From: Candidatus Kapaibacterium sp.
GTDB taxonomy: Bacteria; Bacteroidota; Ignavibacteria; Kapaibacteriales; UBA2268
DNA length: 39,500 nucleotides
Assembly (NCBI GenBank): GCA_028376765.1
Contig: JAONBD010000014.1
Coordinates: 1-39,500, forward strand
Reading direction: 5' to 3'
Shown here: positions 4,939 through 34,199 of the stretch, in pieces
How positions within the stretch are numbered: the stretch's first letter is position 1
Layout: each line of letters begins with the position of its first letter
Made by a program: the position numbers and the translations under genes
Notes under the pieces: model-generated
What the model was told of the DNA's origin: nothing
Databases searched by the model: none
Seen by the model: only the letters and a program-made list of their open reading frames with translations

Positions 4939-5473
4939 TATGAATAGAGACCAACTTTGCCTTGAAATATTTAATTCGGCACACATAACTGGAGAATTTA
5001 AATTAAGATCTGGTGTTGTGAGTAACGAGTACTTTGATAAATATCAATTTGAATCAATCCCTCAATTGCTGAATAACATTGCTATTCATATTACAGAAAT
5101 AGTATCAAAACTAGATTATGATATCCTAGCACCACTCGAAATGGGTGGAATACCAATATCAACTGCACTTGCTTTAAAAGTAGACAAAATCCAATGCTTT
5201 GTAAGAAAAAAAGCTAAGGAATATGGAACAGCAAAGCTAGCAGAAGGTCCAAATATTGATGGTAAGAAGTTATTAATAGTTGAAGATGTTGTAACCAGCG
5301 GTGGGCAAATTATATTAAGTACAAATGATTTGAGAAAGCAAGGAGCTATCATCACAGATGCTGTTTGTGTAATTGATAGAGAAGCAGGTGGAAAAGAAAA
5401 ACTTACTGAAATTGGAGTTACTTTACACCCCCTATTCACAATGACAGAGTTGAAAGCTATTTCGCAATTATAA
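4931..5473 (+). CDS. pyrE: Orotate phosphoribosyltransferase (alternative ATG at 4940)
   Basis: LLIVEDVVTSGGQI PRPP-binding motif, GEFKLRSGVVSNEYFDKYQFES; overlaps the previous CDS by 8 nt. Confidence 0.9.
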   Translation: MISMNRDQLCLEIFNSAHITGEFKLRSGVVSNEYFDKYQFESIPQLLNNIAIHITEIVSKLDYDILAPLEMGGIPISTALALKVDKIQCFVRKKAKEYGTAKLAEGPNIDGKKLLIVEDVVTSGGQIILSTNDLRKQGAIITDAVCVIDREAGGKEKLTEIGVTLHPLFTMTELKAISQL

Positions 5474-6797
5474 TAATTTCAGTTCTTCTATTGAGTTTTT
5501 TACCCCAATCTGAATTATTCGAAGCAATTGGTCTTCTTTCGCCGTAGCCCTTTGTTTTTATTCTAAGAGGAGATATTCCTTTGTTAATCAAATATTTTTT
5601 TACTGCATTTGCTCTTTTTAGCGATAGTCTATCATTTGTAGCATAAGACCCAACATTATCAGTATGACCTTCTATTAAAATTACTACATTTTCTCTATTA
5701 GCCATAAACTCATTTAATACATTTAGCTCTTTTACAGATTTAGGTAATCTACTTTTACCAGTCCCAAACAACATATTTTCGATAATAAGTTTTCTTCCAA
5801 GTTCAACAATTGGAATTGTTTTCTGGGTTATTATTTGTTTCTTTGCATCTACTATTCCAATATCAATAGAATCTGGAATTGCTGGCTTTAAAGTTTTATA
5901 TTTTATAGCATATAGATTAGTCAATTGATTAGAAAAGTTATCTAATATTGATGAAAAAGGATAATCCATATCATAATTGTTACCACGAGTCTTATTTGCA
6001 ATCAATTCGTAATCTCCCAACTTAGGAGATGTAATACAAAAGGCACGTATTTCATTTTCATTCATCAGCTTTATAATTGATTCGGTAGTTTGATCGGTTT
6101 TACCAGCTCCATTTTCTCCTGCTTGATGATATGGTGCATCTGTAATGATCACTAATACTTTGTTTGCCGATGGTCTATATTTAATCTTATTAGTACCCAG
6201 CTTGATAGCTGCCAAACAATTTTCTTTAATGTCATTACCACCTCTAGCTTTTACATCACGAAGCCAACCTAAAAACTCACCAACTGATCCAGTAGGTTGA
6301 TAGAAATTTTCTAATTTATCAGAAAATAAAACAAGACTTAATGTATAGTCAATACCACGGTTGTGTAGGGTATTTGTAAAGTTAATTATTCTTTGTTCCA
6401 TTGCATCAATGTAAGGTTGCATGGAACCAGTTTGATCAACTACAAAGCAAAAATCTACAGGAATTCTATCTTTAATTGATATTTTTTCTACAGAAATTAT
6501 CGATTTTGAGGATCCATTTTCAAGAACTGAAATATCTTCCTTTAGAAGAGTATCTAATGGTTCTCCATAAATGTTATATGCTTCAACAATTAATTTTATC
6601 TCTGGGTAGGTAGAAATGTCTACATTTCTAATTGTCATTCTTATTGATTTCTGCGAAGATCTTACCTTAGCTTCTTCAAGTAATTTTTTTGCTTGAAGTA
6701 TAGAATCTTGAACAGAAAGTTTTTTTGATTCTTCTTTAGCATCTAAGCCAAAAATGAATAATAATAGTAGAATGTACGTAATATTTCTTGTTAGCAT
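5457..6797 (-). CDS. von Willebrand A domain protein with C-terminal OmpA peptidoglycan-binding domain
   Basis: VDFCFVVDQTGSM (MIDAS-like DxTGS); C-terminal VVILIEGHTDNVGSYATNDRLSLKRANAVKKYL...GYGERRPIASNNS...NRRTEI; signal peptide. Confidence 0.9.
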   Translation of the reverse strand: MLTRNITYILLLLFIFGLDAKEESKKLSVQDSILQAKKLLEEAKVRSSQKSIRMTIRNVDISTYPEIKLIVEAYNIYGEPLDTLLKEDISVLENGSSKSIISVEKISIKDRIPVDFCFVVDQTGSMQPYIDAMEQRIINFTNTLHNRGIDYTLSLVLFSDKLENFYQPTGSVGEFLGWLRDVKARGGNDIKENCLAAIKLGTNKIKYRPSANKVLVIITDAPYHQAGENGAGKTDQTTESIIKLMNENEIRAFCITSPKLGDYELIANKTRGNNYDMDYPFSSILDNFSNQLTNLYAIKYKTLKPAIPDSIDIGIVDAKKQIITQKTIPIVELGRKLIIENMLFGTGKSRLPKSVKELNVLNEFMANRENVVILIEGHTDNVGSYATNDRLSLKRANAVKKYLINKGISPLRIKTKGYGERRPIASNNSDWGKKLNRRTEIIIIAK

Positions 6798-6865
6798 TAG
6801 AATTAAAGATTAATTATCGGGTACAATGCAAAATTATGCATTTATACCCGATTAATATAATATTT

Positions 6866-8359
6866 TTAGATTGTGATTCTTAACACAGGTGATATCATAA
6901 AGAAGTTATCCAATTCATAAGGTAACGGATCTCTAAGTGGCTTAGCATATTTCGCTTCTAAAAACAACCAATTACCAAATAATTTAACAAATGCTCTTGT
7001 CAATAGTATTTGATTTGAATATTGAGCACTTACACTAAATGGATAAACTGCTTGGTTTCTGTACTCAATTTTTGCAAAAATCCAATCAGCTAATTCGTCT
7101 GGATGAACAAGGCCAACACCTGAAGTGTTTAACTGAGTAATTTGTTGAAGTGGTGCACCTATTTCTTCACCTTCTTCGTTAGTAAATTTCTGAGTGTAGA
7201 ATAAATATTCTCTGATTTCTGAATAGCTAACACCAAGCTCTAATCTAAAGAAATTTTCGGCTTTATTTTCATCAATCCATAAATTGTAAAAGGCAGTTAA
7301 TTGACCTGTTGTCTCAAGTACAGGAGCTATTCTAAACTGATTATTTGTAGCGAGATTACCTTCTCTTTCGTCATTAGCAAATCTATCAAAACCAGGTAGA
7401 TCTCCATTTGCTACATCATCTGATGCACTAGCACCACCATGTAAATAAAAATCATCTGCATCAATAGTTTCAGTTTGAATCTTCTGTAAAGGAGTTGAAT
7501 AATTCAAACTAATACCCGCTTGAGGATGAAAAGGGAAGTTATACTCTAAACCAAAATTAATTTTTCCAGATGGATGTGAATTTAGTTGTCTTTCAGGAAT
7601 AATTTCAAGTAATCCAGAATTATTAATTCCTGTATTCAATCTATAAGTTCCACCTAATGCAATTTTTAATAATTCAGGATTTCTTACTGATGTATTTGGA
7701 TCATTGTTTAGGTACAAGTCATATTTCATTTGAATACTTGATTCGCCTGCTAACCAAAAAGGTAACCCGACACGATCATTTCCAATTTGAGATGACAACC
7801 AAAAACCAGTATTACCAATTTTCAAAGATTGCTCATATAACGATAAAACCATTGCTTGGTTTACACCTTTTGGTCTGTTAAGGTAATCAACCATTATAAC
7901 GCCCTGATCTTCTTCTACAGGAACTTGAACAGGAATATCTTGGTATGAATAATCTCTATCTCCACGTTGATGTGAACCTGCTATAAATGTAGCTTCTCTG
8001 TATGCTTTTTTTCCAGATAACACATTTGCAACCGTTGGTAATTCTCTGTCTAAAATTTGAGAATTCATTGACTCTACACCACAAGAAAGTAAAAGTATAT
8101 CAAACTCTTTACCATCAAAAGGATTTTTAGGAGCAGCAAGAATAATTATATTTTGCTTATCTAATGAATCTTTGTTGTAACCTAGTTGAAGAAATGATTG
8201 ATAAATCTGAAACTGTAAATCAGGTTCTGTTATTTTCCATCTTGGAAAATATTTTTTCAAATCACCATTTATGTCAGTTAATGAATCTAAATATCTTTCA
8301 TTTGCAAATAATGACGAAGATAAGATAACTGCGAATATTATTATTTTTAAAAATTTCAT
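6866..8359 (-). CDS. Secreted protein, probable outer-membrane beta-barrel with N-terminal soluble domain; unknown family
   Basis: Signal peptide (MKFLKIIIFAVILSSSLFA); alternating aromatic/polar strands in the C-terminal half, ends PVLRITI. Confidence 0.55.
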   Translation of the reverse strand: MKFLKIIIFAVILSSSLFANERYLDSLTDINGDLKKYFPRWKITEPDLQFQIYQSFLQLGYNKDSLDKQNIIILAAPKNPFDGKEFDILLLSCGVESMNSQILDRELPTVANVLSGKKAYREATFIAGSHQRGDRDYSYQDIPVQVPVEEDQGVIMVDYLNRPKGVNQAMVLSLYEQSLKIGNTGFWLSSQIGNDRVGLPFWLAGESSIQMKYDLYLNNDPNTSVRNPELLKIALGGTYRLNTGINNSGLLEIIPERQLNSHPSGKINFGLEYNFPFHPQAGISLNYSTPLQKIQTETIDADDFYLHGGASASDDVANGDLPGFDRFANDEREGNLATNNQFRIAPVLETTGQLTAFYNLWIDENKAENFFRLELGVSYSEIREYLFYTQKFTNEEGEEIGAPLQQITQLNTSGVGLVHPDELADWIFAKIEYRNQAVYPFSVSAQYSNQILLTRAFVKLFGNWLFLEAKYAKPLRDPLPYELDNFFMISPVLRITI

Positions 8360-8385
8360 TTTTTTATTTACCTATTTTGTCAATA

Positions 8386-10197
8386 TTAAAAGATGTAAAT
8401 TAAATTAAACATTGGTTGGAAAAAGCCAGTAGATTCCCAAGGGTCTCTTTCTGATTTTATATCGAATCTACCAACTGCATTAATCTTAGCAAAAAGTGTG
8501 TTATCAATAATAGCAAACTGAGCGAATATGTTTGAATAAAACGACTCGTTGAAGTATTGTAATGAAGCACCCCAAGGTAAATCGCCAGCAGATGACATGA
8601 AGTCCATTTTTATTGATATACCACCAATACTTTCATCACCATTTTGTCCAAATATTTCTTTTCTAGTTACACCATCTTCCAAGACACTTGTGCTGTAAGA
8701 CCAATTTTCTACGTTATAATAGGCACCACCAAGACTAAATCTTAAAAGATTATCTTTATCTATGCTCATTCCAAATGTGTAGTGCGCAGCTGCATTGGCT
8801 CTAATGAAGTATGACTGGTTTCCAGGATTAGTCATAAACTGATTAAACTGAAAATCATTGATATTTCCTGAAGTCCAAGAGTCAATGTTATTATCGTAAT
8901 CAGTACCTAAAAAATCAGCAGGCTCTGCATCAGATGAAACATAAGCACCATCAATATGAAATACATCACTTCTATTTATTACTGGTACATCAAAGTCAGC
9001 AGAAAAATTGAATCCAAATCCACCATAAGTAAGGTTTCTTTGTTGATTATATATATCTTCAGAAATACTTGACCAACCACCAGTTGGAAGTATTAAACCA
9101 AATTTCAATGATTTCCAAATTAAGTTTAAGCTTAATCTTTCAGAACTAAATGATGGTACATTAATAGATTCAACTCCATATTTTAATTCAACACCAATTT
9201 CTGGCAAGTCTTCATTTGTAGGAACAAATTCATCTAACATTGGATTGCCAAGTGAATCTAATTCTATTTCACCTTTTCTATTATACAAATAAGCCTTTGG
9301 ATATTTTTTCCAGCTAATTTTATCTGGACCTACAAATACTTCCATATTTTTTTTGTAATAACTTTCTGGCTCTCCATTCGATATTCTTTTGAATAATTGA
9401 ATGTCATAGTCGCTCACATAGTAAGGAGCGTTGTAACTAATTAGAGGTTCAGAAACTCCCTTTTCTTGGTCTAACCAAATAATATTTGGATCGCCTAGGG
9501 CTCTTGCTTCTAATGTTTTATTTTGTACGTTATCCTGTTGGAAATACACTTCAGCAAGTTCGTACAAGTTAGTAATTGAAGCACCAAGCTTAACTTTACT
9601 TGTATCGATTTCTGTTAATTTCATCTCTCTGTATGAAAAAGCTTCGTCAACTGTTACTTCTTCAAGGTTTTCAATAAGATCATCAGTTTGTTCATCAAAT
9701 GAAGTTTGCTTTACTACCATTCCAATTATTTCTTCTGGGTATCTACCAGGCTCTGAAGGAGGAAGTGTTATGATAAAAGCTGTTGTTATTTTATCATCAG
9801 TTCCACCAATAATTTGAGCTAAATAGTATTGATAAATAATATTCATATCATCTTCTGGTATAACATCGTAACCTTGAGCAAGTAAATCGTTCGTTATATC
9901 AGATTTTAATTTTTCAGACCCAACGCCTTGTTCAACGATTCTAATTGCACCTGGATCATACTTTGACTTTGCAGCCTCAAAATCTTCGGAACTCGCTTGA
10001 TTTTGATTTGAAGGATCATTTGCTTTTATTATTTCGCCGATTGTTGATGCGTCTCTAACCTTGTAGATATAAACATTACCGAAACGATAATTTTTAAATT
10101 TTTGTAGAGTTTTCTCTACATCGTCTGTAGATCCTGTTTGGGCAAATAAACCCACAGAAGATACTACTGCTATTAATATTAATAATTTTTTCATCAT
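8386..10197 (-). CDS. Secreted protein, probable outer-membrane beta-barrel with long N-terminal domain; unknown family
   Basis: Signal peptide (MMKKLLILIAVVSSVGLFAQ); barrel-like strands in C-terminal half, terminal Phe (FNLIYIF). Confidence 0.55.
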   Translation of the reverse strand: MMKKLLILIAVVSSVGLFAQTGSTDDVEKTLQKFKNYRFGNVYIYKVRDASTIGEIIKANDPSNQNQASSEDFEAAKSKYDPGAIRIVEQGVGSEKLKSDITNDLLAQGYDVIPEDDMNIIYQYYLAQIIGGTDDKITTAFIITLPPSEPGRYPEEIIGMVVKQTSFDEQTDDLIENLEEVTVDEAFSYREMKLTEIDTSKVKLGASITNLYELAEVYFQQDNVQNKTLEARALGDPNIIWLDQEKGVSEPLISYNAPYYVSDYDIQLFKRISNGEPESYYKKNMEVFVGPDKISWKKYPKAYLYNRKGEIELDSLGNPMLDEFVPTNEDLPEIGVELKYGVESINVPSFSSERLSLNLIWKSLKFGLILPTGGWSSISEDIYNQQRNLTYGGFGFNFSADFDVPVINRSDVFHIDGAYVSSDAEPADFLGTDYDNNIDSWTSGNINDFQFNQFMTNPGNQSYFIRANAAAHYTFGMSIDKDNLLRFSLGGAYYNVENWSYSTSVLEDGVTRKEIFGQNGDESIGGISIKMDFMSSAGDLPWGASLQYFNESFYSNIFAQFAIIDNTLFAKINAVGRFDIKSERDPWESTGFFQPMFNLIYIF

Positions 10198-10215
10198 TTT
10201 TTTAAATACCCTTAA

Positions 10216-12561
10216 TTATCTTCTTCTTCTACCACCACGCGTATTTCCGCCAGTGTCCATTTTTTTGTTAACTCTAATTTTGTACGTTTTGAAAGTTGGT
10301 TCCGATACTTTACCATTTTCAGGATTAATGGAAGTAGCTTCCATTTTTATTGAAATCTCCCCTCTTACCTTACCTTCATCATCAGGTTCACCTGTCATTC
10401 CAAAATTAATTTGAACTGTGTTATCATCATTTACAGTTGATTTTGGTGTTCCAACAATTGTATAGCCTTTAACTTTAGCGTCTGTATCAACAATTCTAAA
10501 ATTAACATTAGATTTCTTTTCAGAATCGTTTGGATCATAAGTAGGAGCATCAATTTTAATATTTTGAATTCTAACTAGTAATTGATCCTCTCCAGCTATA
10601 TTATCAGTAGCAAAATTTGTTGACAAACCTGGTTGTCTTTGTTTGATACTAACCGAAGTTTCAGGGAAAATTGGAATTTCCTTTTTGCTAATAGGATCTA
10701 CCCATACTATTTCAAGAATTGCATCATTAGCGGAAGCAGAAAAGTTCAATTTATCTTCTCTACCAGCATTTAAGCCAACAATTCTTTTACCTTGAGCATC
10801 AGCATCTGTTTTAAAGTAAATAGCGAATTGATCGGCTGCAATCTTCTGACCAGATGGTGGAGTATATTCAAAGAACATCTGCTGTCCATAATTAGCTAGT
10901 GCAGCAAACTGATTTTTCAGCCTTGAAACATCTTCTTCGATTACACTAGGGAAAACTGTTAGATCAACATTCTTTTCAGATCTATTAGGAACAATATTAT
11001 GTTCTAATTTAACTATATATTCTTTTGGTACACCTTCTCCCGAAGATAAAGCCTGACTTACCGTACCATAATAATCTCTTGATTGACCTTCAGCAGGAGT
11101 TGTTTCGCTTACAGGACGCATTACTATAGTTGCGAGTGGCTGACCTGCCCCTCCAGATTCTTTAGAATATACATTACCTTTTACCACATTCATTCCTGTT
11201 CTCCAAGGAGCAATTTGGAATCTAAAGTTAGCTGGCTGACCCGCAAAAGCATAAACATTATTACTTGCTTCAATAATTGGTTTACTTGGAGGAGGATCTA
11301 ATACATTTACCCTAACATCAAATTCGATTGTATTCTGATTCTGTTCAAAGTTTTTGGACATCCCAGGACTTAGCAGAGTTACTATATAGCCGTATAATTG
11401 AACATTTCCAATTTTATCAAGTGCTTTAATATCTCCACTAACTTCAAGTTCAGCTATCTCTTTGTTTACAGCAGCAATGAAAGAATCGTGTGTTGCTGGT
11501 TCAGCAAAAACGAAAGCACCACGTCTTTCTTTTACCATTTTAATAATATCAGCATTTACTTCTTTTTCAAGTTGTTTTTTTACTTTTTTAAGTTCTCCAA
11601 TCTTAAGTTGAACTGTACCAATATTCACGGTAGATTCGTCTTCAACCGATTCATTTTGGCCACCCTTGATACCAAGAATTTTATTTGTTTTTGCATCATA
11701 TCTAAGCTTAAACCATCCTTCAGTAGCAGGAGGTTCAAAATTAACAACAAATAATTTGTTGCTTTTATTCTCATCAGATTGTGTTAGGTCAGCATCAACG
11801 TCATCAACATCAACCGAATCTTTTGCATAAAAGAAAATATTTTCATCGTTTACATCACTAGGTTTAAAATCTTGACCGATAGAAACAGCTTTGTAAATTG
11901 GCTCAACAGTTTTACGTCCTACTGTTCCATTCTTTACATGCTCTTCTACCCTCTTATTCATTGCTTCGTGATCTAGATACAAGTCACGAACACCTTTAAG
12001 TTCCCAGCCAGTATCCAAAATTTTAGTGCCGATTGGCATTTCGTTCATATTTGTGATTTTATTCTGAGCCATAAATTCATTAAGTATAGAATCATTAGGG
12101 AAAGGAGGTGATATTCCCTGCTCATCGCTTGGATTGTAAAATATTTCGTATTGAATATTTTCAACATTAGCAAGTTTTACATTTTTTTCTAATCGCTCGA
12201 TGTATTCCTTATCTGTTTCAGCTTCCATTCTGTCTAAAACACCAGAAACATCAGTTACACCAACTGCTATTAGATACCTTCGGTCCGATTTGATATCAGC
12301 ACCAATTAAGTCTTTGATCATACCCGTAGCTTTAAGCTCGGCACTTGGTACACTAACCTCATCTTGAGGTTTTGTAGTAATACCTTCAGTACCAGCACCA
12401 GCTTGAAGTTGGGATAAAATACTTTTAACAATTTTCATTGTTTCTTTTTGCTTCTGATGTAGATGCTCTTCGGCCTCATCACGCTCAACAATGATTATCA
12501 GCAGTTCTAATACTACTGCTAAATACAATACGAAATATACCTTTCCGGCAGAACCTGACAT
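10216..12561 (-). CDS. Inner-membrane-anchored large periplasmic protein, GldM/PorM-like (T9SS core) by architecture
   Basis: Single N-terminal TM (VYFVLYLAVVLELLIIIV), helical region, then beta/Ig-like domains; resemblance to GldM is architectural only. Confidence 0.45.
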   Translation of the reverse strand: MSGSAGKVYFVLYLAVVLELLIIIVERDEAEEHLHQKQKETMKIVKSILSQLQAGAGTEGITTKPQDEVSVPSAELKATGMIKDLIGADIKSDRRYLIAVGVTDVSGVLDRMEAETDKEYIERLEKNVKLANVENIQYEIFYNPSDEQGISPPFPNDSILNEFMAQNKITNMNEMPIGTKILDTGWELKGVRDLYLDHEAMNKRVEEHVKNGTVGRKTVEPIYKAVSIGQDFKPSDVNDENIFFYAKDSVDVDDVDADLTQSDENKSNKLFVVNFEPPATEGWFKLRYDAKTNKILGIKGGQNESVEDESTVNIGTVQLKIGELKKVKKQLEKEVNADIIKMVKERRGAFVFAEPATHDSFIAAVNKEIAELEVSGDIKALDKIGNVQLYGYIVTLLSPGMSKNFEQNQNTIEFDVRVNVLDPPPSKPIIEASNNVYAFAGQPANFRFQIAPWRTGMNVVKGNVYSKESGGAGQPLATIVMRPVSETTPAEGQSRDYYGTVSQALSSGEGVPKEYIVKLEHNIVPNRSEKNVDLTVFPSVIEEDVSRLKNQFAALANYGQQMFFEYTPPSGQKIAADQFAIYFKTDADAQGKRIVGLNAGREDKLNFSASANDAILEIVWVDPISKKEIPIFPETSVSIKQRQPGLSTNFATDNIAGEDQLLVRIQNIKIDAPTYDPNDSEKKSNVNFRIVDTDAKVKGYTIVGTPKSTVNDDNTVQINFGMTGEPDDEGKVRGEISIKMEATSINPENGKVSEPTFKTYKIRVNKKMDTGGNTRGGRRRR

Positions 12562-15974: not shown

Positions 15975-18746
15975 ATGAAAAAAATCATATTAATCATCTG
16001 TATTATTTCAATCTCTTTAAAATCAAAAGAGATTATTATCAAAACAAAATCCGATTTTACCTTAGATGCAATAACCAATTATTTAGAGAATAACTACAAA
16101 TCAATTCTGTCCGATTTTGACACACAATTCTTTATTAATAATCGAACTATTTTCAACCCTAAATCTCACTATAATAATTTACTCGAAAGAAGTGCTAATA
16201 TTAATAGTTTAAAAAATATCTATATAGTAAGCTACAGCTCTTCTATAAATGCCGAGATACTAATTTCTAAACTTAAACCAGATCCCTCATTTGAATTTGT
16301 GGAGCAAATGCCAAAAAGAGAATTACTTTTTGAAGCAAATGACTCTTTACTACAACAACAATATTACCTTGAAAATATAAAATTATTTGAAGGACTTGAT
16401 AACTTTTCACCTAGTGAAAATGAAGTTCTTATTGCTATAGTAGATACTGGGCTAGATTATTTACATGAAGATTTAAAAGAAAATATCTGGATTAATACTG
16501 GTGAAACTGGTATTGATGAGAACGGAGAAGAAAAAGAAAGTAATAATATTGATGATGATAATAATGGATATATTGATGATTATCGAGGTTGGGATTTTGT
16601 TTCTTCTTTTGGAGAAGATAATGATCCTTATCCTGGTAATGGTCATGGTACTCATGTAGCTGGTATAGCTGCTGCAAAAACTAACAACAAAATTGGAGTT
16701 GTTGGCATTGCACAAAATTCTAAATTAGTTGGTGTGAAAATTGGATCTGATAATCCTAATAGCAGAAGTGTTGCCAGAGGCTACGAAGGAATATTATACG
16801 CTGCAATAATTGGTGCAGATGTTATAAATTGCTCGTGGGGTGGTGGAGGATTTTCTCAATCGGAAGAGTTGGTAATTGAAACGGCTTATGAACTGGGTTC
16901 TATTATAGTTGCAGCTGCTGGAAATGATAATTCGGATATAGCCTTCTACCCTGCTGCTTATGACCATGTTGTTTCAGTTGCCTCAAGTGGAGCTTCAAAT
17001 TCAAAATCAGGTTTTTCAAATTATAATTCTACAGTAGATATTACAGCTCCTGGAAGTGGAATTTTTAATACAATTCCCAACAATGATTATGCATCATTGA
17101 ATGGTACTTCAATGGCATCACCAGTTGTTGCAGGTGCTTTCGCTCTTGCCTTGCAATCTTTCCCAAATTATTCTAAAGATCAAATAATTGAACAGATGCT
17201 TGGTACAGCCAGCTCCGATTTAAATACAAATAATTTTGTTGGAAAACTTGGCAGTGGTCTTCTTGATATTGAAGAAATGATTAATAATAAAAATGCTAAG
17301 AATATAAGCCTAGCAAACTACAATGTATCAGATCTAGATAATAATAATATTTTTGAATCGGGCGAGGAACTAAGAATTGATTTTAGTTTAAAAAACATAT
17401 TAAACAATATTAATAATTTTTCATATAATTTTTATAATAATCAAACATCCGAAATATTAGAATCTGAGATTATCAATAAAGGATTATTTGAAACAAATCA
17501 GTCATTTTTAGAATCTCAAGTTATTACTTTACCAGAAGAACTCCCATTAGATTTTAATTACAACCTATCATTAAATGTTACTGGCGATGGATACTCAAGA
17601 GAATTTATTCTTCCATTTAATGTAAATCAATCATATCGTAATATTGGAAATCAAAAAATTGATTTAACTATTAATTCACGTGGGAATTTAGGATTTAATG
17701 ATTATCCGTCTAACAATCAGGGAATTGGTTTTTCTTACTTAGATGGATCCAACTTGTTATTTGAAGGAGGTTTAATAATTTCTACCTCTTCAAATAGTAT
17801 TTCTTCGGTTGTAAGATCTTCTAACCAAGGCTCTCAATATTCAGACTTTACACCAAACTCTGTAGTTGTTACAGAAGATTTATGGGGTGCCGCAAGAGCA
17901 ACAAACTCATTTAAAGATAATAATATTATTGGTAGAGCTGGTGTTGAAATTACAAAGGAATATTTAATTTCTAAATCGGATGAACTTTCTAATGTTGTAT
18001 TTATAAAAAATATTATTAAAAATACTTCCAATTTTGATACAGACTCACTTTTTGTGGGATATTTCTTTGATTGGGACTTAGGGCAAAGTGGTAGAAATAA
18101 TGTAGCAGAATTTTGGGAAGAAGAAAACATAGGAATACAATACAGCAATGATGACCAAACTTTACCTTATGTTGCTTCTGCACTTATTTCTGATGGCGAG
18201 TTTATCTTCTACCCTCTTGATAATGATGGAAGCTCTGAGATGAATCCTGGCGTTTATGATGGCTTTACAAAAAATGAACAGTGGCAACTTATATCTGGAG
18301 AAATATCTAGATCTAAATCCAATATTACTGATGCGTCAATGGTATTTTCATCAGGGCCATACAGTTTGCAAAAAGAAGAAACAATTGAAATAATTTATGT
18401 TTTAATGGTTGCTGATAGTAAGAGTGATTTCCCAGATCTTTATTCAAAAGCGAAAATTAATTTTGAGCAACTAAGTATTAAAAATCAAAATGATAATGAC
18501 GCAGAACTTTTAATAAGTCCAAACCCGATTAAAGGTAATTCTTTAACAATAGAAACACCAAACGAAATACTAGGTCTCACCACTATAAACATCACTAGTA
18601 TTAAGGGAACAAATGTATTTTCTGAAACTTTAAATATTGATAAATCTGTAATCGAGTTAAATTTAGATTTAATTGAAAGTGGAAGTTATTTTATTGAATT
18701 AATTAACAATGGTAATAAATATAAAGGAAAGTTTATATCATTATAA
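15975..18746 (+). CDS. Secreted S8 (subtilisin-like) peptidase with T9SS C-terminal sorting domain
   Basis: Catalytic motifs AIVDTGLDY, GHGTHVAGIAA, NGTSMASPVVAGA; tail LLISPNPIKGNSLTI...IKGTNVFSETLN...LIESGSYFIELINNGNKYKGKFISL. Confidence 0.93.
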   Translation: MKKIILIICIISISLKSKEIIIKTKSDFTLDAITNYLENNYKSILSDFDTQFFINNRTIFNPKSHYNNLLERSANINSLKNIYIVSYSSSINAEILISKLKPDPSFEFVEQMPKRELLFEANDSLLQQQYYLENIKLFEGLDNFSPSENEVLIAIVDTGLDYLHEDLKENIWINTGETGIDENGEEKESNNIDDDNNGYIDDYRGWDFVSSFGEDNDPYPGNGHGTHVAGIAAAKTNNKIGVVGIAQNSKLVGVKIGSDNPNSRSVARGYEGILYAAIIGADVINCSWGGGGFSQSEELVIETAYELGSIIVAAAGNDNSDIAFYPAAYDHVVSVASSGASNSKSGFSNYNSTVDITAPGSGIFNTIPNNDYASLNGTSMASPVVAGAFALALQSFPNYSKDQIIEQMLGTASSDLNTNNFVGKLGSGLLDIEEMINNKNAKNISLANYNVSDLDNNNIFESGEELRIDFSLKNILNNINNFSYNFYNNQTSEILESEIINKGLFETNQSFLESQVITLPEELPLDFNYNLSLNVTGDGYSREFILPFNVNQSYRNIGNQKIDLTINSRGNLGFNDYPSNNQGIGFSYLDGSNLLFEGGLIISTSSNSISSVVRSSNQGSQYSDFTPNSVVVTEDLWGAARATNSFKDNNIIGRAGVEITKEYLISKSDELSNVVFIKNIIKNTSNFDTDSLFVGYFFDWDLGQSGRNNVAEFWEEENIGIQYSNDDQTLPYVASALISDGEFIFYPLDNDGSSEMNPGVYDGFTKNEQWQLISGEISRSKSNITDASMVFSSGPYSLQKEETIEIIYVLMVADSKSDFPDLYSKAKINFEQLSIKNQNDNDAELLISPNPIKGNSLTIETPNEILGLTTINITSIKGTNVFSETLNIDKSVIELNLDLIESGSYFIELINNGNKYKGKFISL

Positions 18747-18770: not shown

Positions 18771-20801
18771 TTATTTGGAAGGAGTAAATTCAATTTTTTC
18801 GTTTGTGTTAAATTTGTACTCCAAATTCAACTCGTAAGAGAACATTGGGGTAGTCGATTTAACCTTTGAAGGTAATGTTAGTTCACCTGTTTTGGTATAC
18901 TCTAAGTACTTGGTTTCGATTTCAATTAATCCCTGTGGAGTTTGTTCACTTGTCGAAGAACTTATTAGTAAATAAGTAGAAGAATCGAACATATAAATAG
19001 TTTTTGTTCCACTTGGCGATACAGCCTCTAGTGCTACTTTGTTTTCTTTTTCGCCTAAAACTTTAAGTGCATAATCTGATTTTTCTAATTGGCTTACTCC
19101 AAATATTTTGCTTTCGAGCTTAAATGCATCGTTAATGTCCATTTTTTGCTCCATTCCACCAGCATTAATCCAAACATCATTTTCATTTATCCATTTTTGC
19201 TGTGCCATTCCAGCTACATCTAACTTTTGATAAAGCTTATTACCTGATTTTCTATATTCATACAGTTCGGTTGGCATCTCTCTTCCTTGAAGATTAGCAG
19301 TACCCTTTCCTGTGGTAAGTAACGATTCAATTTTTTTTAGATTAGACATACCACCAATTGCAGAATTATATTTTTCTAAAAGATCGTCTGAATCAAGACT
19401 TGAATTAGAATAACCAGCATCTGCCATAATATTTTTATCGTATTCGTAAACTTTGCCGAATTTTTCTAATTTAGATTTAATTGATGCAGGTCCTACCACT
19501 ACTATTTTTACTTGATCTTCTTTAAGAAATTTCTTAGCAGATAATGAAACTTGCGAAGATTGAATATTTTTTAATCTATCTAAAAACGATTCAACTTGTC
19601 TTGCTTTTTTACCTTTAAATTCTGAGTTTTGTAACATAGCAGCCACAAATGATGAGTTCTCAAAATTCATCATGTAAGAACCAGATTTATATTTTTTAAT
19701 TGATTCTAATTCATCATTTGAAATTTCAGATTTATATAAGTTGAATATTTGTTCATTTATAACTTCAATTGAAGAATCGGTTACTGCTTCCTTAACATCA
19801 GCAGCAGCATAAAAATAGTTTGAAAATCTTTTGTTAGTAAGACCACCTGAAGGCGAGTATGTAAATGAATATTTTTCTCGAAGGGTACGGAAAAGCCTTC
19901 CAGTGAAACTAGCTCCTATAATTGAACCATTGAAGCTTAAAGTTTCATAGTCGTAATCGTTGAAACTAGGTGCAGGGAATAATACTCTTACTGTTGATTG
20001 AACCGAGCCTTCCCTTTCAATAAAATAAATTCCTTTAGGAAGTGGTTTTGGATTTGGAACATCAATTATTGGTTTTGTTTCTTTATCATCTGTAATCTTA
20101 GAAATGATGTTCTTAATTTTCTGAATAGATTCATCAGAATAGTCACCATAAATTGCAAGACTCATATTCCTAGCATGCAAATATTTCTTGTAGTAATTTT
20201 TTAAATCATCTACTTCTATTTTCTCTATATCAGATTCCCTTGCAAATTTAGAATAAGGATGGTTCTCACCATAAATAACTATCTTTGAAAGATTACTAGC
20301 AAGAGAGCTAGGGTTTGCTTTATCGGCAATTATTGAAGATATCGCCAGTTTTTTAATTTTTTCCAATTCTCTTTTATCAAAAGTTGGATTATTAATTATC
20401 AATTCAAATATTTCGAGAGCTTTATCAAGATGTTTATTTAATACCTCAAGATTAGCAACTATAAAATCGTCAGCAGCATTTATACTAAGACTTGCACCAA
20501 TTCCATCTAAGCTCTCAGCAATTTGCAGGGCAGACAATTCACCGGCACCTTTTGTAAGCATTGCTGCTGTTAAATCAGCTACACCTGTTTTAGACTCAAC
20601 GGAAGTCCCTCCACCAATTATCAATCTAATGTTTGTAATAGGTTGTTTATCATCTTTAATTAACAATAATTGAATATTGTTATTAGTAGACTTTATTTCA
20701 TATTCAGGAAACTTAAAATTATAACCTGATATTGGTTTAGGTTTTTGAGCAATTAGTTGATTCAGCATAATAAAGATTAATAATATAAATAGTTTTTTCA
20801 T
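18771..20801 (-). CDS. M16 (insulinase-family) protein lacking HxxEH, with extra C-terminal domain
   Basis: M16 fold motifs (NIRLIIGGGTSVE, GVADLTAAMLTKGA, RLFRTLREKYSFTYSPSGG) but no HxxEH; signal peptide. Confidence 0.87.
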   Translation of the reverse strand: MKKLFILLIFIMLNQLIAQKPKPISGYNFKFPEYEIKSTNNNIQLLLIKDDKQPITNIRLIIGGGTSVESKTGVADLTAAMLTKGAGELSALQIAESLDGIGASLSINAADDFIVANLEVLNKHLDKALEIFELIINNPTFDKRELEKIKKLAISSIIADKANPSSLASNLSKIVIYGENHPYSKFARESDIEKIEVDDLKNYYKKYLHARNMSLAIYGDYSDESIQKIKNIISKITDDKETKPIIDVPNPKPLPKGIYFIEREGSVQSTVRVLFPAPSFNDYDYETLSFNGSIIGASFTGRLFRTLREKYSFTYSPSGGLTNKRFSNYFYAAADVKEAVTDSSIEVINEQIFNLYKSEISNDELESIKKYKSGSYMMNFENSSFVAAMLQNSEFKGKKARQVESFLDRLKNIQSSQVSLSAKKFLKEDQVKIVVVGPASIKSKLEKFGKVYEYDKNIMADAGYSNSSLDSDDLLEKYNSAIGGMSNLKKIESLLTTGKGTANLQGREMPTELYEYRKSGNKLYQKLDVAGMAQQKWINENDVWINAGGMEQKMDINDAFKLESKIFGVSQLEKSDYALKVLGEKENKVALEAVSPSGTKTIYMFDSSTYLLISSSTSEQTPQGLIEIETKYLEYTKTGELTLPSKVKSTTPMFSYELNLEYKFNTNEKIEFTPSK

Positions 20802-20821
20802 TTGGATAATGCCTCATTAGG

Positions 20822-22126
20822 TCATTTTTTTGGTAAATAATTTAATACGACTTTGTTTTTGTTAATCAAATATTTTTTTGCCACGTTAACAATATCATCT
20901 GTAGTGATTGAATTGTACTTTTTAATTTCACTATTTATTAGTTCAGGGTCATCATAGTATGCCTTGTATCTGGCAAGAGACATAGCTTTTTCCAAAACAT
21001 CCTTGTTGGAAGTAAGTAAATCTATCTCTGTAATATTCTTAGTTTTTTCTAATTCTTTGTTAGATATTCCTTTCTCAGCAATTTTTTCTATTTCTTCTTC
21101 AATCTCTTCTTTCAAAATTTCTAACTCAGTATCTCCGCTTGCAACTGCATAGAAGATAATACCTCCATCAGCTTCTAATGATAAAGGCATCATTGAAGCC
21201 TGAACAGCAATTTGTTCTTTATCAACAAGTTTTCGATATAATCTGGAAGATTCGCCTGCAGCCAAAATATTAGCAAGTAGGTTCATAGAATAGTAATCGT
21301 CAGAGCCTAATTTAGGACCACGATACCCCATGAAAACAGCTTTAAGAGGAGCTTTATCATCTATAATTGATTCGGTATAATCTTTATTAAATGGTACTAC
21401 TTCTATATTATTTCTAACAGGTAAATCGGAATTTGTAATACCACCAAAATATTTAGCTACATATTCTTTTGTTGTTTGGTATTCAAAATTTCCAGAAATA
21501 ACTAATATGGCATTCTTTGGTTTATAGAAATTATCATAAAAATCTTTAAAGTTTTTAATTGTTGCATTTCTGATATGATCAGCATCACCAATAGTTGCCC
21601 ACGAATATGCACCACCAATGAATAGATTCGACAACATTTTTTCTAGCATTGTACCATAGGGTTGGTTATCTACCCTAGCATTTTTTTCTTCGAGAACTAC
21701 ACCTCGTTGTGTTTCCACACCAGTCTTTTCGACCTGAAGACCTCTCATCCTTTGGGATTCAATCCAAAGTGGTAATTGAATTTCGTTTGAAGGAACTTTA
21801 AATTTGTATACGGTTTCATCAAAAGAAGTGTGAGCATTTAACCATCCACCAGCCTCATTGATATATTTAGCAATTTCAGACCTAGGTATGCTGTCTGTTG
21901 CTTCGAACATTAAATGTTCAAAAAAGTGGGCATATCCAGTTTTATCTTTATCTTCATCCTTAGATCCAACTTTGTAATGAACAACAGTAGATACTACAGG
22001 AGCAGTTTTATCGATATGGTAAATTACTTGCAGACCGTTGTCTAAAGTTTCTTCAACAAAGACAATGTCTTTTGCAGTTAAATTTAATGACATAGTAAAA
22101 AGTGTGATTATTAATGATAGTTTCAT
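20822..22126 (-). CDS. M16 zinc peptidase, catalytic type (ORF-track start 22213; ATG 22126 preferred)
   Basis: GYAHFFEHLMFEAT (HxxEH) plus downstream GVVLEEKNARVDN; signal peptide MKLSLIITLFTMSLNLTA. Confidence 0.92.
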   Translation of the reverse strand: MKLSLIITLFTMSLNLTAKDIVFVEETLDNGLQVIYHIDKTAPVVSTVVHYKVGSKDEDKDKTGYAHFFEHLMFEATDSIPRSEIAKYINEAGGWLNAHTSFDETVYKFKVPSNEIQLPLWIESQRMRGLQVEKTGVETQRGVVLEEKNARVDNQPYGTMLEKMLSNLFIGGAYSWATIGDADHIRNATIKNFKDFYDNFYKPKNAILVISGNFEYQTTKEYVAKYFGGITNSDLPVRNNIEVVPFNKDYTESIIDDKAPLKAVFMGYRGPKLGSDDYYSMNLLANILAAGESSRLYRKLVDKEQIAVQASMMPLSLEADGGIIFYAVASGDTELEILKEEIEEEIEKIAEKGISNKELEKTKNITEIDLLTSNKDVLEKAMSLARYKAYYDDPELINSEIKKYNSITTDDIVNVAKKYLINKNKVVLNYLPKK

Positions 22127-22210
22127 TGTTCCGATTTTATTGACATTGAACAAAGTGTATATTACGAATAAATTGCATCTTTTGTTTAAAAGAGTTATTT
22201 TAAATTTTTT

Positions 22211-22218
22211 CAAATCTA
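22211..22218 (-). promoter_or_regulatory. Candidate -7 element (TAGATTTG) for the M16 operon
   Basis: TAnnTTTG match 85 nt upstream of ATG 22126; -33 not clear. Confidence 0.3.
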
Positions 22219-27675: not shown

Positions 27676-28263
27676 CTAACGCATATCAATAGTTTCGGCA
27701 TCTTCGGGGATATTAAAATTGTATTCACTATCTGATTTTTCTTTGCTGATGTCTAGTTTTAGTATTTTCCAAACTTCATTATACTGGGACATCTCTAATA
27801 GTTTTATTTCATAATTTTCATCAAGTTCTAATATTATCTGATCTGTGTTTCTCTTGTCCTTTAAAACAAGTTTGTAACTATTACCATTTTTAGAGTTCAA
27901 TATTTTACTAAAGGACTTTGCTTCCATATTATTAACAATATCAAAAAATACTGTTTCAATTCCAGAATTTGAGTTTTCTTGATATTTAGATATCAAAACC
28001 TGATTATCTGGCTTAGAATAGTTCCAGATAGATTTACCATCTGATACAAGCTGCCTATCTCCAAATATCATTTTATATTTGTTACCTTTTTCTGCTTTGA
28101 TAGACCCAGTCAGTCCAGAGCCAACTGCTTCTACATTTAATTGAATCATTTCAAAATTATCTAATTTTGACTTAATTTTTTCAAGTACTTGATCTTTATT
28201 TATAGCCAAGGTAGAAATACTAAAAGTTACAAATAGTATTATCATACTAATCAATTTTTGCAT
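27676..28263 (-). CDS. lolA: LolA-like outer-membrane lipoprotein carrier protein
   Basis: Signal peptide; GSIKAEKGNKYKMIFGDRQLVSDGKSIWNYSKPDNQVLIS, VFFDIVNN, typical LolA layout and size. Confidence 0.8.
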   Translation of the reverse strand: MQKLISMIILFVTFSISTLAINKDQVLEKIKSKLDNFEMIQLNVEAVGSGLTGSIKAEKGNKYKMIFGDRQLVSDGKSIWNYSKPDNQVLISKYQENSNSGIETVFFDIVNNMEAKSFSKILNSKNGNSYKLVLKDKRNTDQIILELDENYEIKLLEMSQYNEVWKILKLDISKEKSDSEYNFNIPEDAETIDMR

Positions 28264-29103: not shown

Positions 29104-30198
29104 CTATCTCCAATCAACTAGTAACGAGAATCTCATTGTGTTAGCTAATGGATGGTTTGCTTCCATTGTTAAAATATATCCAAAATCTAATTTGAATATA
29201 TCATATTTTATTCCTGCACCTAGATTATAAAATCTTCTGTCACCAGCTACCTGAGGCTCAGTAAAATATCCAGCTCTCAGTGCAATTATTTGTTGATACC
29301 AATATTCAGCTCCAATTGAAATTTCAGCACCAGGGTTATCCCAACCAGTATATAAAGATACAGGAAGCGGATCAGATCCCAATGAATCTCTTTTTACTAG
29401 TAACTTTCCAAAGTCAAATGCAAAAGTTAAATCACTAAATTCATCTTCATAAGCCCTATAAGCTGCACCTAATCTTAATTGAGTTGGAAGAGGATCCGCC
29501 TGTCTTACATACGTCATTTGTGGTCCAATGTTCTGCAAGTTAAAACCTAATGATAGTCTATCTTCAAAAATTGAAAAATCAATTGGTTTCCAAAGTAGTC
29601 CTAAATCAAATGAAACACTGACACCAGTTCCAGCATCACCTGATGCAGTTGTCGTTGGAGTCAAGTTAGATTGAATGTACCGTAGTTGAAACCCAGCAGA
29701 TAAATCTTCCGCTATTATAGTCCCATAAGCTAGTCCCAAACTAAACTCAACTGATCTAAACTTACCTTCCTCTCTACCATTTATATCTGTTGCAGTAAAT
29801 TCTCCTAAGTTCATTAAGATTAAATTAAATGCGACGGTACCATCTAAATCTTCAAAATGCTGCCCTACAGTTAAATAACTGTAATACAAATCTGCATTGA
29901 ACTGTGGTAACCACGGAGAGAAAGAAAGTGCTACTTGGCGATAAGGCTCAAGCTCAGCATCTGGATCGAAACCATAAGCAGGCTCAAAATAATCTAGAAA
30001 TCCAAGACCAGCAGGATTCCAATAAATCGCATTAATATCATCTGCTATTGCTGTTCCCGTCTCACCCATTCCACTAGCTCTTGCATCTGGAGCTATTAGT
30101 AAGAATGGTACAGCAGAACCACCCGCTTGTGCTAAAACTGTTCTAGCACCAAAAGTGATCGACAAAATCAAAATGATTAATATTCCTATTCTTTGCAT
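29104..30198 (-). CDS. porV: PorV/PorQ-family outer-membrane protein (T9SS, PorV by context)
   Basis: GGSAVPFLLIAPDARASGMGETGTAIADDINAIYWNPAGLGFL; downstream of PorU. Confidence 0.85.
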   Translation of the reverse strand: MQRIGILIILILSITFGARTVLAQAGGSAVPFLLIAPDARASGMGETGTAIADDINAIYWNPAGLGFLDYFEPAYGFDPDAELEPYRQVALSFSPWLPQFNADLYYSYLTVGQHFEDLDGTVAFNLILMNLGEFTATDINGREEGKFRSVEFSLGLAYGTIIAEDLSAGFQLRYIQSNLTPTTTASGDAGTGVSVSFDLGLLWKPIDFSIFEDRLSLGFNLQNIGPQMTYVRQADPLPTQLRLGAAYRAYEDEFSDLTFAFDFGKLLVKRDSLGSDPLPVSLYTGWDNPGAEISIGAEYWYQQIIALRAGYFTEPQVAGDRRFYNLGAGIKYDIFKLDFGYILTMEANHPLANTMRFSLLVDWR

Positions 30199-30227
30199 AT
30201 TATTAAAGCCTCTTTTACAAAATATTT

Positions 30228-33200
30228 TTATTGAACTTTTATACTAACTATTCCGGCGTTATTTTTTTCGTAGCCGTTTATACTTTTTACATTTACTTGA
30301 ATTAAATATGAACCACTCATTATTGGTTCACCGTTTTGTGCTGTTCCATCCCAAAAAACTTCTAGAATTTGCCTAGAAAAATCTCTTCCATCAAAAGTGC
30401 GAACTAAATGACCTTCAATATCATAAATATTTATGGAATAATCAAATCCTGGTTCTAAATTATGCTTAACTTGAATGGTTGTATTATCAGAAAATGGGTT
30501 TGGATAATTTTTTATATCACTGATTCTAATATCAGATGCATTATCTGGTATATAAAAATATGTAGTTGCAGTTTCAAAATTATTGAATAAATCCCACGCT
30601 CTAACCGTTACTTTATTCAGACCTGGTTGTAAATTATTTAGCTGTATATTACTTGTTCCTTGCTGGTTACTACCATTTAAAGTTGTATAGTTGTTAGTCA
30701 TATCTAATGAATTTGGTGAATCATTAACCCATGCTTCAATCCTATGCCCAATTCCTACACCAGTAGAATTTATCCCTAAGCTGTCGAACAAATCAATAAT
30801 TAGAAGTGGATTTCTACTAACAATATCTCCCTGAATAAATTTTCTAGAATCAAGATAAATCTTAATTTCTGGTCCAATATCATCGTTAAATGAATTAGTA
30901 TCAATTCCATAGATTCTAAAGTTATTGAAATTACCTTTAGCAAATTTGGTAGAATCATTACTGCTAGCATAAGCAAACATTCTTCCTAAATTCTCAGAAA
31001 AACTAATATCTTTAGGGATAATAAAATCTATTTCGAAGCTCCCATCAGTAACATCAGTAGTACTTTTGTTTAGAATACCACCATATTTGTTAAAGAAGTA
31101 AAATCTTTTTAACTCTTCAATTTCATAAGACCTGTCTCCATCAAAAATACTAAATTCTAACTGCCCATTGAAACTAGGATCAAAAGAACCATTTGGAGTA
31201 TTAATATGGCCTTTAACTTTTACTTTTGATAACCCTTTCAAAATCATTGGTGATTCAGGGTCAGTTGGTAAGTCAGTATCGGGAAAGCTGTCAATAACTA
31301 CTTGATAATCTGGTATTAATAACTTAATAGTTGGGTCACCAAGAATTAGATATTTCTCATCATTAGTTTTATTAAGAATCTGCTTTACGTTAAACAAAGC
31401 CTCGCCAACACTTGGGTACAATCCAGTTTCAGAATTACGCTTTAATATCTCTTGGAAATATAATTCATTAATGGTTCCATTCTGAATGGCATAAACAAGC
31501 CTTGTTGCTGCAAATAAGGCTACAGCACCCGAATTCTCCATGAAAAGTAATTCTTCGGCAGCAATTGTCCCATTAAAATTATCGAATTGACCAAAGGAAC
31601 AAGTTGCTGCAGTAGCAAAAAATAACTTATCACCATTGTTTAGTTTATCAAGTGATTCATTTTGATTAAATACATTTTCATGAGCCCAAACGTAAGGATT
31701 GCCATGTCCAGACCAATTTAATATCAATGATCCTTTATCATTGATAGCTGTTAAAATATCATTATTTGCATTTGGTTTTCTTCTACCATCAGAAGTTAGT
31801 TCTGTTTGATATTCAATTAAGTACACTTTGCTATGAACAAATTTTTCCATGTTATCAACATCAGTCAAATCCTCAGAAGCTTTTATATGAGCATTACCAT
31901 CGTTTGAACCATCTCCTTGAAGACCATCATCAGCAACAAGGGTTATATTATTTCTCCAATTCCCTGTACTTGAGTTATGTTCATATTGTTCAATTTTTTT
32001 TACATATAACTCACCTAGTTGGTCCGCAGATAATTTGCTAGTAGGATGTAAAGGCACTCTTCCAGAAATCATGTCAATTAGATCATCCTCACCATCAACT
32101 CTAATAAAAAAATCATCATGAGCTGTGGTAGATGTGGCAAACATTTCTCTTAATGAATCTGCCGAATGATATAATGGCACATAAATTTTATCTTTGATAG
32201 ATAAGTTTCTATTATCAGAATGTGCATCACCCCAAAAAAGAACATATTTAGGTGTGTTAGACCAAGTTAAATAAGAGTACTTTAAAAAGTTTCTTATTGA
32301 TGCAATGTCTTTTACACCACAACCAAACTCGTTATATATTGATTGAGTAGAAACAACTGAAACACTTAAATCGCTATTAGATTCACGATATTCTTTAAAT
32401 TTATTTGCAGAATTAAGAAGTTCATTATCAGTAATTACTATTACATCAGTGTTAAGAGGGTCAGAACGTAAGTTTGCAAAATTAATATTTTCCAAGACGG
32501 GTGATTTAAAATCACTAGATACAAAGAATTTATTTACTTGATCTGCATTAAATTTTATAATTGGATTAGAGTTAGAACCATAGTTATTAAGAAAAACTGG
32601 GTTTCTTGAATCGGTAACATTAACAACATAAAGTTCATTACCCGAAAAGCCAGAGAGATTAAACTGTGTCCCAGCTTCCAATTCATAATCAGAAAAGAAG
32701 CTCATTCTATTATTAATCGCAACAAATTCTCTAGGATAGTGTATTTCGATATAATCCATATAAGGGCTATCAGTAGGGTTACCAACATAATTAATATCAA
32801 TTACACTCTTATTACCTACCACATTCGATGCAGGAGCCGTTAAATATTTACTGGGTCTATCAGCATACATATAGCTTCCAGTCGGAATATCTAGCAACCT
32901 TAAGTTTCCAACTTCTGTCCCGTTTTCATTGACATAAGCAACAGCATTCGAAGAAGATTTATGAGCAATCGCAACTCTGTAAGTAATTTCTCCAGTTCTA
33001 TCAAGGTTATATAATTGCTGTTCGTATTTTTTACCACTACTTATAAGGTTTCCAACCATTTGCCGACCAGAACCAGATGGATCTAAATTGAATTTTTCTT
33101 CATGGTACAATGAGTGTTGTTTATAGATACTGGGCTGATTGATAATTGCACCATCAAATTTTTGATAGGAGGCTCTTTTACCCGGCAGGCCTCCCCAAGT

Positions 33201-34199
33201 AAGTATGTAATGATTTTTTTGAGAATACCAATTAATATAATTTTCGGCACCTTTTTGAGAAGGTTTGAAACCAACTGCATCATTTGCATAAAAAATGGCT
33301 TCAATAAAATTGCCATTAGCATCTGTTTTTACTACAATTTCATTTTCTGGTAGGGATTCCCAATCATCGTTTTCAACATGTTCGTCCATTGGAATTCCGC
33401 CATAACCGAATAGCTTTAAAGATTTAGCATCATCGCTTGTTAAATCGAAACCCATAGATGAAAGGTTTTCTTTAGTTATTTTATACAGATTTTCTTTATC
33501 AACTGTAACCTTAAGCCAATTGCCAGAAGAAACATTTGTAATAGTTTGAAGTTGATTTTGCGATTTTTTATTTTTTGTTAAAGACTCCCAATTAGCAATT
33601 ACCTCGCTATTAATAGTATTGTGGAAATCATTTTGAGTGATATTAGAGTTTGCCTTGCTTACATCAAATTTTATTTTTAGTATTAATCGCTCTGTTATTG
33701 ATGTTTTTTGCTTCGCTGAATTAAAAAAAGCAGCTAATAAATTTAGCTTTAAAACAGGCTGACCAGCCGAAACACCTAAATACTCTGAGCTAAATATAGG
33801 AGGTTGGGGTGCGTTAAAGTAATTTTCAGATGTTTTATAAACTACATCCGATTGATATAAATTATCTTCCTGTGGAACTGGTGGTAGCAGATTATCCACC
33901 AATTGATAATCTGGTGTAGAAATAATTTCAATTGAATATCCATTTTCTGATGGTACGCTTACTAGAACAGGCACAGCAAAATGGTAAGGCTCACCTGCAA
34001 CATCACCCATTGGTATTGCTCCAGAGAATTTTGGATAATAACTAATGTTATTTTCTACAGTCTTAATTTTATCGAAACCTTTAAGGCTAGGACTAAAGGA
34101 TATTATTAATTCTTCTGGGCCTGATGAAATGATTTCTACACCATTGTTAGCATTTAAGCTAATGGTTAGAATACTTAGAATTAAAAGAATTTTTAACAT
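30228..34199 (-). CDS. porU: Type IX secretion system C25-family sortase PorU
   Basis: Gingipain-type catalytic region LILNWSGHGNPYVWAHE...FFATAATCSFGQFDNF; C-terminal YPNPFSDNTTIQV...FWDGTAQNGEPIMSGSYLIQV. Confidence 0.9.
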   Translation of the reverse strand: MLKILLILSILTISLNANNGVEIISSGPEELIISFSPSLKGFDKIKTVENNISYYPKFSGAIPMGDVAGEPYHFAVPVLVSVPSENGYSIEIISTPDYQLVDNLLPPVPQEDNLYQSDVVYKTSENYFNAPQPPIFSSEYLGVSAGQPVLKLNLLAAFFNSAKQKTSITERLILKIKFDVSKANSNITQNDFHNTINSEVIANWESLTKNKKSQNQLQTITNVSSGNWLKVTVDKENLYKITKENLSSMGFDLTSDDAKSLKLFGYGGIPMDEHVENDDWESLPENEIVVKTDANGNFIEAIFYANDAVGFKPSQKGAENYINWYSQKNHYILTWGGLPGKRASYQKFDGAIINQPSIYKQHSLYHEEKFNLDPSGSGRQMVGNLISSGKKYEQQLYNLDRTGEITYRVAIAHKSSSNAVAYVNENGTEVGNLRLLDIPTGSYMYADRPSKYLTAPASNVVGNKSVIDINYVGNPTDSPYMDYIEIHYPREFVAINNRMSFFSDYELEAGTQFNLSGFSGNELYVVNVTDSRNPVFLNNYGSNSNPIIKFNADQVNKFFVSSDFKSPVLENINFANLRSDPLNTDVIVITDNELLNSANKFKEYRESNSDLSVSVVSTQSIYNEFGCGVKDIASIRNFLKYSYLTWSNTPKYVLFWGDAHSDNRNLSIKDKIYVPLYHSADSLREMFATSTTAHDDFFIRVDGEDDLIDMISGRVPLHPTSKLSADQLGELYVKKIEQYEHNSSTGNWRNNITLVADDGLQGDGSNDGNAHIKASEDLTDVDNMEKFVHSKVYLIEYQTELTSDGRRKPNANNDILTAINDKGSLILNWSGHGNPYVWAHENVFNQNESLDKLNNGDKLFFATAATCSFGQFDNFNGTIAAEELLFMENSGAVALFAATRLVYAIQNGTINELYFQEILKRNSETGLYPSVGEALFNVKQILNKTNDEKYLILGDPTIKLLIPDYQVVIDSFPDTDLPTDPESPMILKGLSKVKVKGHINTPNGSFDPSFNGQLEFSIFDGDRSYEIEELKRFYFFNKYGGILNKSTTDVTDGSFEIDFIIPKDISFSENLGRMFAYASSNDSTKFAKGNFNNFRIYGIDTNSFNDDIGPEIKIYLDSRKFIQGDIVSRNPLLIIDLFDSLGINSTGVGIGHRIEAWVNDSPNSLDMTNNYTTLNGSNQQGTSNIQLNNLQPGLNKVTVRAWDLFNNFETATTYFYIPDNASDIRISDIKNYPNPFSDNTTIQVKHNLEPGFDYSINIYDIEGHLVRTFDGRDFSRQILEVFWDGTAQNGEPIMSGSYLIQVNVKSINGYEKNNAGIVSIKVQ

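Follow-up and report, generated by a model that had tools for sequence, protein, structure and literature searches.

A block of four genes in the 39,500-nucleotide stretch analysed here (the window; positions 1 to 39,500, forward strand, of contig JAONBD010000014.1, assembly GCA_028376765.1) appears to encode those parts of a divergent, proton-driven motor module of the GldLM type that lie in the periplasm and the outer membrane. The DNA comes from Candidatus Kapaibacterium sp., of the order Kapaibacteriales in the class Ignavibacteria, and the process that the module most likely powers is the type IX secretion system (T9SS) of this lineage, a reading held with somewhat better than even confidence. 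An earlier note, made from the letters of the window, had proposed a T9SS-like module spanning the envelope, and this idea is partly supported. The genes of the block, in transcription order, are:

10216-12561, minus strand: W8, GldM-like trans-periplasmic protein, 781 amino acids (open reading frame (ORF) call)
8386-10197, minus strand: W7, exported protein, 603 amino acids, soluble N-terminal half and C-terminal beta-barrel (ORF call; hydrophobic signal-like N-terminus)
6866-8359, minus strand: W6, outer-membrane beta-barrel protein, 497 amino acids, N-terminal alpha/beta periplasmic domain (ORF call; AlphaFold2)
5457-6797, minus strand: W5, exported protein with VWA and OmpA peptidoglycan-binding domains, 446 amino acids (Pfam)

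The four-gene block and its conservation

ORF calling reproduces exactly the layout given in the earlier note, four genes on one strand, W8 and W7 being separated by 18 nucleotides, W7 and W6 by 26, and W6 and W5 by 68. The note's description of the products also holds. W8 has a single hydrophobic stretch (residues 8-26), the 603- and 497-residue proteins W7 and W6 each start with a hydrophobic signal-like segment, and Pfam finds both an OmpA domain (E 2e-22) and a VWA domain (VWA_4, E 4e-12) in W5. None of W8, W7 and W6 scores above a Pfam or NCBIfam cut-off; weak matches to NEAT (E 0.05), the HAN nuclease (E 0.0016) and DUF6705 lie far under the cut-offs and were discarded. The source genome is 76% complete.

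The barrel halves of W7 and W6 are paralogous (hhalign probability (P) 99, E 5e-19). In its AlphaFold2 model (predicted local distance difference test (pLDDT) 81.6), W6 has a small alpha/beta domain and a C-terminal beta-barrel. Foldseek matches this model to assorted outer-membrane barrels of many families at low template-modelling (TM) scores, none of them specific, and the structural matches include no TonB-dependent receptor that W6 resembles in particular. The two barrel-like proteins stay outside known families, as the earlier note had supposed, with no cut-off passed and no specific porin family matched. PorP/SprF, GldN and GldK were ruled out for both by profile comparison, the short matches falling mostly at the signal peptides. 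PorE, which has TPR, propeller-type and OmpA domains, was rejected for W5: only VWA and OmpA are found in W5, and the PorE model matches the OmpA domain alone, far under its cut-off.

W8 homologues are present in 105 of the 294 genomes of the class examined and in nearly every genome of the order. When gene order is compared across these relatives, the exact order W8-W7-W6-W5 is kept in 50 of the 62 loci for which 6 kb or more of downstream DNA is available, while most of the other 12 have just one of W7, W6 and W5 absent from the ORF calls. Since W8 homologues are widespread in the order and the gene order is kept, the block is conserved and not a chance grouping. A scan of genome contigs with the single W8 protein as query gave no match; the same scan with a W8 alignment gave 118 relatives, and the 80 that were retained carry titles mostly of Candidatus Kapabacteria/Kapaibacterium or Ignavibacteria.

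Other families have the genes in other layouts. In families f11 and f26, a shorter W8 is accompanied by two barrels and a VWA-OmpA protein. In families f28, f18 and f21, a C10 protein of 205 amino acids and a separate exported C8 protein of 360 amino acids come before C5 and C6. Because the profiles match across layouts (C10 to W8, P 98; C8 to C7, P 97; C6 to W6, P 98; and, more weakly, C5 to W7, P 82), these gene sets and the W8 block look like one module. At four loci (L045, L046, L047 and L049) the GldM-like protein is apparently split into C10, with the membrane segment, and C8, and the C5-C6 barrel-type pairs that follow are duplicated.

GldL-like candidate partners and the possible relation of W8 to GldM

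The earlier note saw no GldL gene next to the block. This is true at the locus, but three GldL-like genes are located elsewhere in the same genome. The search beyond the locus also found a GldM-like partner, MC, next to one of them, although no canonical GldL model matches. The three genes are:

contig C24 of the source genome (G000): LA, GldL-like, 440 amino acids, four predicted transmembrane segments
contig C35 of the source genome (L093 7485-8444): LB, GldL-like, about 320 amino acids, four predicted transmembrane segments
contig C13 of the source genome (LC-MC pair at L184 4956-7208): LC, GldL-like, 259 amino acids

A search with an alignment of the two-helix core (A2) finds this L family in every one of 70 genomes of the order, three copies being the usual number. 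Its members share the two features that mark GldL/PorL, two transmembrane helices and a strictly conserved glutamate in the second (TM2); the GldL models TIGR03513 and PF22827 do not match them, and neither do the Pfam models of MotA/ExbB. In the source genome and at most LC loci fetched, LC is followed by MC, a 488-residue protein with a single transmembrane segment, which is the order of gldL and gldM. In the source genome, the pair lies downstream of a gene that we take, from its N-terminus, to be LptF/LptG-like. LB has no conserved neighbouring partner.

In hhalign, the LC profile matches canonical GldL along the two helices (P 88, E 3.2e-6), and the invariant TM2 glutamate of LC and the L family aligns with E49 of GldL. 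For MC and C7 taken together, the match to GldM covers domains two and three of the latter (P 77, E 2e-5). The controls, which were reversed, column-shuffled or unrelated alignments, gave at best about E 0.01. Both matches beat the controls, and the aligned residue, E49, which is strictly conserved in GldL, is one that F. johnsoniae needs for secretion (PMC8986121). LC and MC are therefore very probably a GldL-GldM pair of divergent type.

In other families, the gene directly upstream of W8-type genes encodes a protein (c4) whose two membrane helices are adjacent. An L gene occupies this position at L032, L039-L041, L043 and L045-L050, and on these sequence comparisons the L and W8-type proteins are taken to constitute a second, paralogous pair. 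In a tree of the L cores, which are short, the copies of the order that adjoin MC appear nearest to canonical GldL; a second group holds the copies next to W8, C7 or C10 together with LA and LB, and an intermediate place is taken by the f11/f26 and f13 copies in first position. Family f5 has second W8 paralogues (L032 8825-12705 and L087; also L279, L286, L289 and L290); these are preceded by an L protein and are not followed by a W7/W6/W5 block.

W8 has the single N-terminal transmembrane helix and long periplasmic part that characterize GldM/PorM. The helix region is its most conserved portion, with 27 of the first 35 positions near-invariant as against 37 of the remaining 746, and the helix carries an invariant glutamate, E19. 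Such a pattern would be expected for a motor helix inside a ring of partner subunits. In the AlphaFold2 model (pLDDT 81.6, predicted TM score 0.48), an N-terminal helix (residues 5-54) leads into an alpha/beta domain (about 65-400) and then into immunoglobulin-like (Ig-like) beta-sandwich domains (about 410-770). The top Foldseek matches in the PDB are cadherin and immunoglobulin arrays at low TM scores, and similar generic arrays appear in a viral library; the predicted fold does not establish W8 as GldM.

Direct homology to GldM found no support: Pfam, NCBIfam, the PDB sequence search and hhalign give no signal. W8 has no match among PDB sequences and nothing at E<=1 with the GldM models TIGR03517, PF12081, PF21601, PF21602 and PF12080, while canonical GldM, the positive control, matches the four Pfam models. 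A relation is suggested by a chain of profiles, from W8 to C7 of locus L043 (P 99), from C7 to MC (P 99.8), and from MC with C7 to GldM as given above. W8 may be GldM-like in its working, yet it is not classed as GldM.

The L proteins share with GldL the two helices, the glutamate that is invariant in TM2 and the long cytoplasmic tail, and, as with gldL and gldM, the L gene precedes a gene for a protein with one transmembrane segment and a long periplasmic part. Unlike GldL and GldM, the proteins of the module match no GldL or GldM model, and a genome may hold as many as three L paralogues, of which two are predicted to have four transmembrane segments. The first domain of GldM has a helical fold, whereas that of W8 is modelled as alpha/beta; the glutamate in the W8 helix is a further difference. 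A barrel and an OmpA-type anchor encoded with or near the motor recall PorP/SprF, GldK/GldN and PorE of T9SS, although by profile the W7 and W6 barrels belong to none of the first four, and W5 differs from PorE in its VWA domain, sharing the OmpA domain alone. The combination of a multi-helix membrane protein and a periplasmic partner with one transmembrane segment, and the four-helix layout of LA and LB, resemble the 5:2 motors MotAB, ExbBD and TolQR; unlike these, the module gives no Pfam match to them, and W8 is far longer, with no MotB/ExbD-type domain detected.

Type IX secretion genes in the window and the lineage

Other genes of the window belong to T9SS or probably depend on it:

30228-34199, minus strand: PorU, T9SS sortase (NF033707, 774 bits, cut-off 420)
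29104-30198, minus strand: PorV, T9SS outer-membrane shuttle (NF033710, 255.8 bits, cut-off 250)
15975-18746, plus strand: likely T9SS cargo, a subtilase whose C-terminal sorting domain is of T9SS type A (Pfam Por_Secre_tail and TIGR04183, both above cut-off)

The PorV and PorU genes (29104-34199) are about 17 kb from the four-gene block, and a LolA-like gene (27676-28263) lies near them. Two adjoining minus-strand genes occupy 18771-22213, the first of which is presumably an M16-type peptidase, judging by its sequence. SprA scores over its cut-off in every one of 61 genomes of the order, the source genome among them; the source genome has the SprA translocon, PorV, PorU and likely cargo with a sorting domain. 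In 61 genomes of the order, the GldM model TIGR03517 finds nothing over its cut-off. The GldL model TIGR03513 and the GldN model TIGR03523 each exceed their cut-off in 28 genomes from the phylum sample, all of other classes and none of this one. With the PorP/SprF model TIGR03519, 27 genomes exceed the cut-off; the ten sampled genomes that belong to the order match neither this model nor that of GldN. GldL_N (PF22827), which scores canonical GldL proteins at 99-111 bits, was found in 0 of 149 genomes of the class, in a search that itself had no positive control. The presence of the T9SS channel, with none of the known motor families found, supports the reading of the earlier note and makes the block a good candidate for the missing motor. 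In the phylum sample, many genomes with SprA (f12, f16, f32, f34, f43 and others) match neither canonical GldL nor the present L-family model; therefore phyletic co-occurrence is no proof, and in such genomes further divergent motors may exist or the models may fall short.

Gene neighbourhoods provide further links between the module and T9SS. In 26 distinct sampled genomes of the order, the gene immediately downstream of LA encodes a large PorU2-like protein, and the sample holds a handful of exceptions; in the source genome, LA and this protein of 1846 amino acids occupy 4470-11434 of L092 (contig C24). One PorU2-like protein that was tested matches the PorU2 and PorU models, though under their cut-offs, and a T9SS sorting tail just under its cut-off. 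Two genomes (G282 and G156) differ in that the gene immediately following that of an LA-like protein is a W8 homologue. In genomes of the f11/f26 type (L043, L044), LC, an MC-type protein, L, a W8-type protein, two barrels and the VWA-OmpA protein are clustered. In one further genome (G194; L186), SprA is directly upstream of the W8 block, with one small gene of opposite orientation between, a suggestive link between W8 and T9SS. From sequence and gene order together, the W8 block probably has a role in secretion.

Possible mechanism and alternative explanations

The steps by which the module might work are modelled on GldLM (review PMC9389320). The L subunits would form a ring in the inner membrane, and the GldL-like partner of W8 would be LA or LB, encoded elsewhere in the genome. 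W8 would be the GldM-like axle, with its single helix inside the L ring, and protons passing the TM2 glutamates of L would cause the W8 helices to move. The periplasmic shaft of W8 would extend toward the outer membrane and transmit this motion to the W7 and W6 barrels, which would be the receivers, in the place held by PorP/SprF and the GldK/GldN ring in Bacteroidetes, while the OmpA domain of W5 would tie the assembly to the peptidoglycan, as that of PorE does. A pentamer-dimer assembly, proton coupling, contact among the four products and service to T9SS are what we infer by this analogy.

Several observations weigh against a secretion motor built on W8. Neither LA nor LB adjoins W8 in the source genome. 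The suggestion of the earlier note that the 781-residue protein is GldM-like is supported by way of the intermediates C7 and MC only; directly, the hhalign match of W8 to GldM (E 0.016) is inside the range of the controls. In the Foldseek comparison, a check that the note had proposed, GldM is absent from the 50 best PDB folds for the W8 model. SprA is found throughout the class, also in genomes that give no match to the L-family model (f12, f16 and part of f18), and therefore co-occurrence does not discriminate there. SprA adjoins the W8 block in G194 alone. In addition, LC-MC could be the T9SS motor, and W8 would then have another duty.

This last point leads to an alternative that is rather unlikely: LC-MC, as the counterpart of GldLM, is the real T9SS motor, and W8 with LA or LB is a second, paralogous trans-envelope motor, which might serve to maintain the envelope or move the cell over surfaces by means of its own barrels and VWA-OmpA anchor. 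In its favour, no other proteins of the set are as close to canonical GldL and GldM as LC and MC, the tree has two distinct L clades pairing with two distinct M types, and the W8 block includes separate barrels and a separate anchor. However, the presence of both pairs and the barrels in one cluster in f11/f26-type genomes suggests a single machine, and both the PorU2-like T9SS protein next to LA and the SprA gene beside the W8 block in G194 connect the supposed second motor with secretion. It is improbable that the block is a motorless complex, a tether or transporter joining the outer membrane to peptidoglycan in which the W8 helix is merely a membrane anchor. Tandem Ig-like domains are typical of passive scaffolds, and no ion-motor gene adjoins the block in the source genome, but a passive anchor is not expected to be the most conserved part of its protein, and in several families the gene just upstream of W8-type genes is that of an L protein, with two helices and an invariant glutamate in the membrane. 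A proton-driven energizer of the Ton/Tol-like class (ExbBD/TolQR), serving the two barrels and unrelated to secretion, is very improbable. Energizing outer-membrane barrels is what Ton/Tol systems do, and the four predicted membrane segments of LA and LB recall the MotA layout; against this, the match of LC is to GldL, Pfam MotA/ExbB finds no L protein, and W6 has no likeness to any one TonB-dependent receptor. With these alternatives considered, a divergent GldLM-type motor module that powers T9SS is the preferred explanation of the block. A more specific form of it, put forward tentatively, is that T9SS of Kapabacteria and Ignavibacteria is driven by a two-motor machine, in which LC-MC and L-W8 act on the novel barrel pair with its VWA-OmpA anchor and replace GldKLMN/PorP.

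T9SS has been defined by SprA and the GldLM motor. A survey with known models found it in Bacteroidetes only (PMC4793230), whereas other work states that it may extend to Ignavibacteriota and related phyla (PMC11285876). In the open-access literature, no described motor was found for Kapabacteria or Ignavibacteria. With SprA universal in the order, PorU and PorV in the window and the known motor families not found, the module supplies specific candidates for the motor that powers secretion in these bacteria and would widen the GldLM motor family to members that current models miss. With its duplicated motors and different outer-membrane receivers, it may also provide a second natural design on which the motor mechanism of Flavobacterium can be tested.

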